Source of the DNA: Chloroflexia bacterium
GTDB taxonomy: Bacteria > Chloroflexota > Chloroflexia > QHBQ01 > JADMIH01
Length of the DNA stretch: 8,634 bases
NCBI GenBank assembly: GCA_025927935.1
Contig: JAICKM010000266.1
Coordinates: forward strand, 1 to 8,634
Direction of reading: 5' to 3'
A program made the translations under genes and the position numbers. The first letter of the stretch is position 1. Each line of letters starts with the position of its first letter. Below, one piece after another: positions 4,101 to 5,959 of this stretch. The notes under the pieces were generated by a model. The model searched no databases and had not been told where the DNA came from. It saw only the letters and a list, made by a program, of their open reading frames with translations.

Positions 4101-5959
4101 TCGCCCGCCCGCTCATACGAGTTCATGTCGTTGAGGATCGCGCCGACGGTCAGGCCGAGCTGGGCGTACACGGGACCCATCCAGTCGCTGTCGCGCTTCA
4201 CCAGGTACTCGTTGACCGTGACCAGGTGGGCGCCCCGCGCGGTCAGCGCGTTCAGCGAGAGCGGCAGCGCGGCGACGAGGGTCTTGCCTTCGCCGGTCTT
4301 CATCTCGGCGATCTTGCCTTCGTGGAGCGTGATCCCGCCCATGAACTGCACGTCGGCGGGACGCAAGCCGATGGCGCGGCGGGCCGAGTCCCAGATGCAG
4401 GCAAACACAATCGGCAGCAACTCGTTGAGCAGATCCTGTTCCTGCTTCCGTTCGGCCTCGCTGTATTCGGTCTGCAAGGCGCGCAAACGGTCGGCCTGCT
4501 CGCGATCCCCGGCGGTGCGCAGTTCAGCGTGGAAGCGGCGGAAGAAGTCCTCGATCAGGTTATCACGCGCCACCATCGCCTGCTGGAGATGCAGCGGCTT
4601 GACGGCGAGGGGCGGGTTCAGCCCGGCTTCCTCCTCGGCGTCGAGTTCGGCCAGGAGCGCGTCCTGGCGCTCCTGCAAGGCGGCCAGCGCCTCCAGGAAG
4701 GGGCCGACGGCCTCCGGGAAATCGGCTTCCAACCGCTCCTGGTAGGTCTGCCACAGATCGGTGCGGGCGCGCAGCAGTTGGCCGCGCACCACGGCCATGT
4801 GGCCTTGCAGGCGATCCGTGCGGGCGGCGAAGCGGGCCTGTAGATCGGCCAGCGCAGCCTGGGCGGCCTCGCTCGCCTCAACGCGCGCCAGTGCCTCGGC
4901 GGTCAGGGCCAGCAGCGGCTCGGCGGCCGCTTCCTGCCAGGTCAGCAGGTCGGCCAGGTCGTCCTTGGGCGCGCGCACCGTGCCCGCGGCGATGCCCTGC
5001 TGCGGGGTGAGCGGCACCGGCGCGGGCGCCGATTTGCGACGTCCAAACAGCCCGCCGCCACCGGATGTATTCGCTACGGCCGCCGACGGCACCGGGCCGG
5101 CTGCCGCCAGCAGTTCACCGGGCAGCAACAGACCCTGGCGCTGCAAGTGCTTCATCAGGTCGTTGGCTTGCAGCGCATCGACCAGGGTGCGCGTCGCCGC
5201 GCGCAGTTTGTCCCGATCCCCGGCGACGGCGGCCTGTTCGGCGCGCATGCCGTCCAGCGGATGCGGGCCGCGGTCCACATTGGCGGCCTGGCCCCCCGCC
5301 AGCGACGTATCGCCCAACAGCGCCAGCAGCGCCGTGGCGTGGCGCAGGCCGTCGAGCAGGTCTTGCAAGCGGCGGAAGTAGCCCGCGATCTCCGGCCCCA
5401 GAGCCGTAGAGGTCTGCTCCACCATCTTGCCGATTTCGTCCGGGGTGGCCCGGTTGCTTTTGCGCTCGTCCAGGTTCTGGAGACGGCTCGTCACCACCTC
5501 CATCGCCGGGCGGCCGGCGCTGAACGCGCGCAACTGGGCCAGGATGCGGTCGCTCAGTTCCGCGATATTGGCTTCCACCTCCTGGCGGTCGCCGGTGCGC
5601 CGGGCCAATTCGGCCATAAGCTGGGCCAGCTGGCGGCTATCGGCCAGCAGCACGTTCATATTGCGCGTGGTCGCCTCGCCTACCTCGATGACCCGCCGCA
5701 GTTCCGGGGCGTCGGCGGTGAGACCCTGCACGGTGGCCGTGGCCTCGGTTAGCGCCTCGCGCAGCAAGTCGGGCAGCACCCGGCCGGCGTTACTCTCACG
5801 ATGGATGAGCGTGTGCAGGTCCGCGCGCAGCGCCGCCAGCGCCGCCAGTTGCGCCGCCAGCAACTCCTCAATCTCGTTATTGACGGCGGCGACAATCTTG
5901 CGCAGCCTGGTAAGTTCTTTGTCCTGGGAGTCGACAAAGTTTCCCAGCCACTTAAACAT
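1121..5959 (-). CDS. secA: Preprotein translocase ATPase SecA, giant form with two large insertions
   Basis: This is the motor that drives unfolded preproteins through SecYEG at the inner face of the membrane, using ATP. It has 1612 residues; ordinary SecA has about 800-1000. Residues 1-40 match the SecA N-terminal helix (DKELTRLRKIV). Residues about 41-495 are an unrelated, mostly helical insertion. NBD1 begins with GLRPADVQFMGG (531-542), then Walker A MKTGEGKT (553-560), TYGTNSEFGFDYLRDN (627-641) and the VVDEVDNILIDEAR Walker B region (658-671). The preprotein cross-linking domain spans about 702-810. NBD2 holds GTVSIEKSE (904-912), NMAGRGTDI (954-962) and LRGRAGRQGDPG (991-1002). The scaffold helix runs about 1040-1087, then a second insertion, then the two-helix finger at 1436-1490 with Y1466 at its tip. 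An Ala/Gly/Pro-rich basic linker (1504-1593) leads to the SEC-C zinc motif C1598, C1600, C1609, H1610. The start is supported by GAGG seven bases upstream and by the SecA-like N-terminus. All motor motifs are intact, so it should be functional. Confidence 0.97.
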   Translation of the reverse strand: MFKWLGNFVDSQDKELTRLRKIVAAVNNEIEELLAAQLAALAALRADLHTLIHRESNAGRVLPDLLREALTEATATVQGLTADAPELRRVIEVGEATTRNMNVLLADSRQLAQLMAELARRTGDRQEVEANIAELSDRILAQLRAFSAGRPAMEVVTSRLQNLDERKSNRATPDEIGKMVEQTSTALGPEIAGYFRRLQDLLDGLRHATALLALLGDTSLAGGQAANVDRGPHPLDGMRAEQAAVAGDRDKLRAATRTLVDALQANDLMKHLQRQGLLLPGELLAAAGPVPSAAVANTSGGGGLFGRRKSAPAPVPLTPQQGIAAGTVRAPKDDLADLLTWQEAAAEPLLALTAEALARVEASEAAQAALADLQARFAARTDRLQGHMAVVRGQLLRARTDLWQTYQERLEADFPEAVGPFLEALAALQERQDALLAELDAEEEAGLNPPLAVKPLHLQQAMVARDNLIEDFFRRFHAELRTAGDREQADRLRALQTEYSEAERKQEQDLLNELLPIVFACIWDSARRAIGLRPADVQFMGGITLHEGKIAEMKTGEGKTLVAALPLSLNALTARGAHLVTVNEYLVKRDSDWMGPVYAQLGLTVGAILNDMNSYERAGEYKSDITYGTNSEFGFDYLRDNTAPGSEQVVQRGHHFAVVDEVDNILIDEARTPLIISGPSQDTSDVHEKAAAFARHLDAKRDYEVDEKSRSAVFTDEGVERAEQFFHITNLYHPDNFMLVYGLDNALKAHALFRRDRDYVLMQDGKIVSPGEKLNPKQPVEVVIVDEFTGRPMEGRRYSEGLHEAIEAKEGIRVRGESQTYATITIQNYFRMYDKLAGMTGTALTEAEEFYKIYKLEVTAIPTRLPMVRQDFPDRVYKTETAKFRAVVEEIKEIHEQGRPILVGTVSIEKSEELAAMLNEEGIEHAVLNAKQHEREASLVAQAGQKGSVTIATNMAGRGTDITLGFGVAELGGLHIVGTERHESRRIDNQLRGRAGRQGDPGSSRFYVSIEDEIMRRSGVNQNIVNSRVFNALWEEDMPIEHNLISKSVETAQTKMEGYNFDLRKHLVEYDDVVNTQRDVIYKERRYVLTQGEPRTIVLDMLAETVDDLANPNRVGANPAAPPPATPRKKGQIDAETLFAALAETFSEDVTRRMAHHLLRDHVAALIEAGNREAVGDELATIAAEGAAGRLDLVQGAIDRDLRAFYHVDDPMYETVQQASFDYTKLMKIMTAILPLPADLSADDLEGMQYEEAKQYFGDMAANEFDHQFAGRLAEVQHAVRVAAERGDAHTLAVQAGVTEELAGDANLSEAEREAGALLDLVDSAFPLSPASAAARLPVDPGSTLAAQELPRIIGGQLEQIYAEVQERLGQDFIQQNAHVPLLGMVDHSIPAPVYREMEDVVGMERLEALELQPLGQLDEEIQALVRDAFVKHQESRWIIHVIDQLWTRHLTTMESLRQSIGLQAYAQKDPLVEYKRNAYELFEELKAEIRQLGTRVLSLRIEPAAAPAPQPQPARKETPHKEPAPAGAPQAAVAGMIGAGAGAADGAARGNGAARGGGQQRPAQPQQLPRGKRQGKGAPAAVGATVGSKAPGRNDPCPCGSGRKYKFCHGR
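1670..2629 (-). other. Second insertion in SecA wing/scaffold region, within residues 1111-1430
   Basis: Ordinary SecA has about 105 residues between the scaffold helix (here DVIYKERRYVL, 1079-1089) and the finger (here HVIDQLWTRHL, 1441-1451) beyond the short flanking helices. This protein has about 220 more. The distance from Walker A Lys to finger Tyr is 907 residues here, against 686 in E. coli. The segment begins with a Pro/Ala/Lys-rich linker (1111-1131). It continues as mixed helical sequence, including a KQYFGDMAANEFDHQFAGR stretch. The native wing domain is also in this interval, so the boundaries of the added part are not resolved. Confidence 0.75.
4460..5839 (-). other. N-terminal insertion in SecA, about residues 41-500
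   Basis: This coding segment separates the SecA N-terminal helix from NBD1. The Walker A Lys is residue 559 here against 108 in E. coli SecA, giving about 450 extra residues. The insert is rich in Ala, Leu, Glu, Gln and Arg, with long uninterrupted helical stretches likely to form coiled coils (about 41-285 and 334-500). A Gly/Pro/Ala linker splits the two halves (294-333, containing SGGGGLFGRRKSAPAPVP). It has no Cys before residue 521, no signal peptide and no membrane segment. I do not recognise a domain family. The exact right boundary is uncertain, because residues 490-510 may belong to native SecA. Confidence 0.85.

Follow-up and report, generated by a model that had tools for sequence, protein, structure and literature searches.

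A SecA of the housekeeping type from an uncultured Chloroflexota lineage carries about 450 additional residues after its N-terminal helix

RESULTS

The secA locus

The stretch of DNA analyzed here (the window) comprises 8,634 nucleotides of contig JAICKM010000266.1, from assembly GCA_025927935.1 of a Chloroflexia bacterium. It contains a secA gene with the following features.

1121-5959, minus strand: secA open reading frame, 1612 aa, no internal stop; matches TIGR00963 and PRK12904
5840-5959, minus strand: native SecA N-terminal helix, residues 1-40
4445-5839, minus strand: N-site insert, residues 41-505, about 450 residues beyond ordinary SecA
5138-5794, minus strand: predicted helical lobe 1 of the insert, residues 56-274 (AlphaFold2 model), with conserved NVLLADSRQL and NDLMKHLQRQGLLLP
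4970-5137, minus strand: predicted linker, low confidence, residues 275-330 (AlphaFold2), with the motif GGGLFGRRK (301-309)
4514-4969, minus strand: predicted helical lobe 2 of the insert, residues 331-482 (AlphaFold2 model)
2648-4444, minus strand: SecA motor (NBD1, PPXD, NBD2 and start of the scaffold helix), residues 506-1104
1655-2647, minus strand: helical wing domain, enlarged by about 252 residues, residues 1105-1435; boundaries of the extra parts unsettled
1460-1654, minus strand: end of the wing/scaffold region, VIDQLWTRHL and the sequence following it, residues 1436-1500
1124-1180, minus strand: SEC-C zinc-binding tail (PF02810), residues 1594-1612

The GC3 of secA lies between 0.75 and 0.91 in each of its segments. 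Downstream, 168 bases beyond the secA stop, is a DDE_3 transposase with winged-helix domains (2-952, minus strand). Upstream are a 340-aa open reading frame (6057-7079, minus strand) with only sub-threshold metallopeptidase-like and other matches, and a pyruvate kinase gene (7239-8633, minus strand) that runs off the end of the window.

The window SecA exceeded the cut-offs of two NCBIfam SecA models, TIGR00963 (909 bits, cut-off 800) and PRK12904 (937 bits, cut-off 814), and scored below those of two others, PRK09200 (814 bits, cut-off 862) and PRK12901 (808 bits, cut-off 1493). SecA2 accessory translocases belong to the same family, but the window SecA fell below the cut-offs of all four SecA2 models (770/1085, 657/930, 617/1100 and 568/725 bits). 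The DEAD, preprotein cross-linking, P-loop and wing/scaffold domains were all found (PF07517, PF01043, PF21090 and PF07516). By its sequence, then, the window SecA is of the housekeeping type, passing two SecA equivalog models, and it probably fills a working housekeeping role in the cell in this uncultured Chloroflexota lineage. It shares the motor domains, the preprotein cross-linking domain and the SEC-C tail with housekeeping SecA as defined by TIGR00963 and PRK12904, but departs from it in being longer at two places, by about 450 residues just after the N-terminal helix and by about 252 within the wing domain.

The larger insert lies inside SecA, directly behind the N-terminal helix

The matches of both passing SecA models begin late in the protein, at residues 492 and 493, the best Pfam SecA_DEAD stretch begins at residue 488, and SecA chains from the PDB mostly start matching between 462 and 515, often at 491 or 503. 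The N-terminus of the window SecA reads MFKWLGNFVDSQDKELTRLRKIV, and that of an ordinary Chloroflexota SecA (L097) reads MFKFLGKMLGDSNERELGKLRPVV. Aligned by eye, the HMM having given no score, residues 1-40 resemble ordinary Chloroflexota N-termini such as this one, in agreement with the initial annotation, which had called them clearly SecA. Since the model matches begin at 492 and 493 and yet the N-terminus is of the ordinary kind, the roughly 450 residues lie inside SecA and not in front of it.

To estimate the size of the insert, we trained a SecA HMM on 76 GTDB loci out of the 80 compared, which were themselves a subset of 590 matches. By hand count, N27 of the window SecA matches the asparagine at HMM position h29, and F519, which ends the native LLPIVF (514-519) that follows the insert, matches the phenylalanine at h68; setting the interval N27-F519 against h29-h68 gives about 450 extra residues. 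Among the 80 of 590 GTDB loci, mostly the HMM's own training set, the N-site held 0-43 extra residues (median 0), and ordinary SecA frames, read from stop to stop and in some cases cut by contig ends, measured 719-966 aa. The hydrophobic moment of the first 18 residues is 0.54, compared with 0.22-0.31 in three selected ordinary SecAs, and this value, together with the by-eye likeness of the N-terminus, indicates that the amphipathic N-terminal helix of housekeeping SecA is present. The HMM landmarks, along with the persistence of the insert in independent entries described below, substantiate the earlier claim of a large insert just after this helix. The sequence likewise places the insert directly behind the helix, whose role at lipid and SecY, assumed in the initial annotation, is described in PMC6692507.

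The insert is retained within a clade

A search with the insert region, covering the 7989 best word-sharing candidates from 5.8 billion clustered proteins, recovered four long relatives of the window SecA (P0001): P0002 (1611 aa), P0003 (1598 aa), P0004 (1610 aa) and P0005 (1640 aa). Their insert regions are 91%, 91%, 65% and 61% identical to that of the window, respectively. Across these four relatives, identity to the window is 61-92% in the insert lobes, 61-90% in the wing expansion and 89-96% in the motor (511-1105); conservation is lower in the insert than in the motor. A four-row profile applied to proteins of about 258-822 aa added three N-terminal fragments with the same insert (P0008, P0009 and P0010) and, among 7998 candidates of that size, no free-standing relative of the insert. 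Residues 1-15 are identical in six of the seven aligned members, the exception being P0008, with L for W4. The initial annotation had proposed conservation within a clade as a check on the insert, and the four long relatives and three fragments provide it.

Several of these entries have irregularities of their own. Up to about alignment column 1000, P0003 agrees with P0002 at 97-100% of positions; from there to column 1400 the identity is mostly 60-65%, so that P0003 is apparently a chimera and does not count as an independent entry. The last part of P0009 is an unrelated PF06724 region, on a contig of 1293 bases, P0008 stops near the linker, and P0010 departs from the family sequence after about residue 148. 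Because the longest contig is 12386 for both P0010 and P0006, they may represent the two parts of a single split gene. The source of P0007 is given as 'Chloroflexota bacterium'.

The chimeric appearance of P0003 and the foreign end of P0009 demonstrate that errors of this kind occur in these data, and an assembly chimera or annotation artefact could in principle have produced the insert as well. However, the junctions are the same in P0001, P0002, P0004 and P0005, whose longest contigs differ in length, and the fragments P0008-P0010 come on top of these, which makes such an origin highly improbable. The insert occurs both in independent long SecAs and in N-terminal fragments, and is therefore a real feature kept within the clade, not an accident of assembly. 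With an unbroken frame and the same insert in independent entries, the locus bears out the initial view of a retained architecture, as opposed to decay or an assembly artefact. In searches of sampled genomes, run without a positive control, the window's insert was matched in 0 of 393, 0 of 47 and 0 of 390 genomes, the last sample being from the same phylum as the 400-genome sample used below and likely overlapping with it.

The insert is predicted to form two helical lobes

AlphaFold2 modeling of residues 1-1110 (mean pLDDT 73, pTM 0.70) depicted the insert as helical bundles. The two lobes, residues 56-274 and 331-482, are separated by a stretch with pLDDT below 50 at residues 270-328, and the model thus supports the previously proposed two-lobed helical region with a flexible middle. 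The N-terminal helix (2-54, with residues 1-8 at low confidence) continues towards the arm formed by the lobes, and a return helix (486-529) passes directly into a native SecA helix, which would root the arm next to the membrane-binding tip. The SecA2 chain 6sxh was among the tied best fold matches, both for this model and for that of the wing region described below. Searches assigned the insert to no known fold or domain and pointed to no partner, and no relative of it outside SecA was found.

The linker had been placed at residues 294-333 in the initial annotation, a position close to the low-confidence stretch in the model. It is, however, no plain spacer: in P0001-P0005, block 301-350, whose residues from 331 on already belong to lobe 2, is invariant at 66% of positions. 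The corresponding share is 34-60% in the blocks that cover residues 51-250 and 42-50% in those of residues 351-500. Judged against P0005 alone, residues 294-333 (64%) are not more conserved than the lobes. The motif GGGLFGRRK is invariant in P0001-P0005 and reads differently in P0008, which also deviates in the conserved lobe 1 sequence (Q273 to E).

These properties bear on two possible functions. Since the lobes are all-helical in the AlphaFold2 model, and PMC6692507 links the native SecA N-terminus to dimerization, the lobes of two protomers might pack into a dimer or a higher array at the membrane, although we regard oligomerization as an unlikely role for the insert. Alternatively, the insert might grip the ribosome near the tunnel exit in co-translational export. 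The SecA N-terminus and helical linker bind uL23 according to PMC6692507, and the linker at 294-333, with its GGGLFGRRK motif, has a net charge of +4. On the other hand, the lobe segments have a slight net negative charge (-2, -2, -8 and -7), and the same paper describes ribosome and membrane binding as mutually exclusive, so that ribosome docking appears quite improbable.

A weak, probably chance resemblance of the insert to fumarases

Searched alone against 400 Chloroflexota genomes, the window's insert gave four weak hits (E 9e-5 to 9e-4). Three of the four are fumarase-like open reading frames (L087 and L088 by Pfam, L089 by likeness), and the fourth is a short frame with three stops. The resembling region spans positions 5258-5779 of the window (residues 61-234). 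In a comparison with 29 lyases, P0001 gave a match of 26% identity over 180 aa (E 5e-4), and two of the three fumarases exceeded all 500 shuffled sequences, by 1-2 bits. The hhalign score of the insert against lyases was 27.1, compared with a maximum of 23.6 in 60 shuffles, but with a probability of 2.7%. The match fades in the relatives, with E 0.10 for P0002, no match for P0004 and a 37-residue piece at E 3.4 for P0005. A four-row profile (A4) matched no fumarase of the three genomes, even at E 10, and nothing in 390 genomes at 0.001. A class II fumarase or Lyase_1 domain as the source of the insert therefore seems improbable: although the resemblance stands above some shuffles, it fades in the relatives and with profile A4, and is probably due to chance.

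The wing domain is also enlarged

The initial annotation described the rest of the motor as intact. This holds for NBD1, PPXD, NBD2 and the scaffold helix, but the wing domain, with its approximately 252 extra residues, had escaped notice. The expansion measures 250-258 residues across P0001-P0007, of which P0006 and P0007 are partial, and AlphaFold2 predicts residues 1020-1500 to be helical (mean pLDDT 82). In profile comparisons by hhalign, with 15 shuffles each, the expansion was matched by the ordinary SecA wing core (41.1, shuffle maximum 16.8, probability 87%) at P columns 108-182, in the middle, by a 65-aa wing group (31.1 vs 16.2) at P columns 2-75, near the segment start, and by a 1160-aa wing group (38.9 vs 23.8) at P columns 131-246. 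These matches either fall on shared columns or are rivals for the location of the ordinary wing core. The extra parts therefore have no settled position, and a segment in common with the 1160-aa group is possible. Neither the 287-aa wing group (19.1 vs 20.7, with only 104 residues contributed by L173) nor the 150-aa wing group (19.3 vs 22.7) matched the expansion significantly.

Oversized SecAs occur elsewhere in Chloroflexota

Enlarged SecA motors are not confined to the window's clade but form a broader pattern in Chloroflexota, of which the window's insert is one case. In the class of G002 (L037, 'Chloroflexi bacterium'), we compared 22 loci, mostly picked for their long frames and hence a chosen set and not a measure of frequency. 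Their stop-to-stop frames held wing extras of 150-161 (four loci), 234-239 (three), 287-294 (eight), 319 (one) and 1162-1242 residues (six). The SecA open frames of L154-L158 and L174, with about 1160-1240 extra wing residues, measure 2044-2174 aa over the sequence available. Further SecA loop expansions, some of them in these same 22 loci, were found at h436-466 (240-253 aa, in L165-L168) and at h492-512 (about 204-205 aa, in L170-L172 and L184).

Analogous inserts at the same site as that of the window, which the initial annotation had missed, are also present in other Chloroflexota. In another class, that of G113, 25 of 47 genomes gave a match to a roughly 190-aa insert located at this very loop; its sequences were drawn from 16 loci (L188, L189 and L192-L205), and of the 22 unmatched genomes that with L207 was examined. 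The head of the 190-aa insert matched the ordinary SecA N-terminal block (hhalign 29.3, with 30 shuffles reaching at most 13.1, probability 80%), which indicates growth by tandem duplication in the class of G113. Despite the shared site, the window's insert has no significant profile similarity to the 190-aa insert (18.0 vs a maximum of 19.7 in 100 shuffles) or to a 43-aa extension of the loop that is frequent in the class of G002, and its match to the ordinary N-terminal block (18.2 vs 16.7, over 29 columns, probability 1.2%) is too weak to claim. Two trees separate the window's clade from the class of G113; constraining the two together raised the likelihood by 30 (p-AU 0.80), and a more thorough search grouped them (60/55 support), so that kinship of the two sets of SecAs is possible.

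L207 (G185) lacks the 190-aa insert at matching flanks. As it is nested in the insert-bearing group, next to L201 (82/88 support), this is most simply a loss, and it implies that such inserts can be dispensable. The initial annotation had named insert-less relatives at identical flanks as evidence against a retained insert; none was seen within the window's clade, but for the analogous insert such a case exists in L207, without it, and L201, with it.

These findings raise the alternative of near-neutral accretion, whereby a tolerant surface loop grew by duplication or insertion into a harmless, self-folding and partnerless module. The variously sized insertions at several Chloroflexota SecA loops, the apparent tandem duplication in the class of G113 and the absence from L207 of its group's insert all fit this explanation. 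However, the window's insert has invariant blocks, both within it and beside the linker, despite only 61-66% identity to P0004 and P0005, and the N-terminal helix is kept nearly letter for letter. We consider accretion somewhat doubtful, though a serious contender.

DISCUSSION

The reading that we tentatively prefer, as a possible rather than an established one, is that the insert is a helical docking arm beside the membrane and SecYEG, mounted on a working motor. On this reading, the loop that follows the N-terminal membrane-binding helix would have expanded to an arm of about 450 residues with two helical lobes, and the helical wing domain, a second putatively membrane-facing part, would have gained about 250. 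The native N-terminal helix would serve as the anchor, with the arm growing from it and returning straight into the motor. The arm may help keep SecA at the membrane beside SecYEG and may offer its surface to a partner, such as a channel accessory, a chaperone or the ribosome. In the linker, the conserved GGGLFGRRK motif is a candidate site for such contact.

The membrane location of the arm and its partner are inferred largely from work on other SecAs. PMC6692507 links the SecA N-terminus to phospholipid, SecY, SecB and the ribosomal protein uL23, and PMC6599042 implicates the N-terminal 13 residues in lipid binding and reports a SecA-SecY complex structure in which the scaffold and wing domains touch the nanodisc lipid. 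By analogy with these contacts, both enlarged sites probably lie at membrane- or partner-facing parts of the protein. Inserts recur at both sites in other Chloroflexota, which is consistent with the docking reading.

Lineage-specific SecA inserts have been described in thermophiles, where PMC7023208 reports signature inserts of 50 aa in Thermotogales/Aquificales and 76 aa in Thermales. These are likewise large, lineage-specific and surface-exposed, and the authors of that study hold that they arose independently. They lie within the ATPase domain, however, whereas the window's insert comes after the N-terminal helix and has about nine times the length of the former and six times that of the latter. 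A search of titles and the beginnings of abstracts in the open-access literature, with subscription journals and preprints outside its scope, found no paper on Chloroflexota SecA inserts.

A bolder proposal, which we think unlikely to hold in full, is that Chloroflexota repeatedly make SecA a scaffold by adding modules at two lipid-facing sites. The arm of the window's clade would then be a fused docking factor, giving a membrane- or ribosome-held SecA with a built-in targeting partner in place of SecB-like soluble factors.

According to PMC6692507, lipid, SecY, SecB and the ribosome are partners between which the SecA N-terminus acts as a major switch. A SecA in which about 450 residues have been placed in this switch, with the motor kept, amounts to a natural experiment on the tolerance and role of the switch. 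The question can be tested by comparison, as inserts in the same loop elsewhere, wing inserts of more than 1100 residues and one apparent secondary loss are all available within Chloroflexota.
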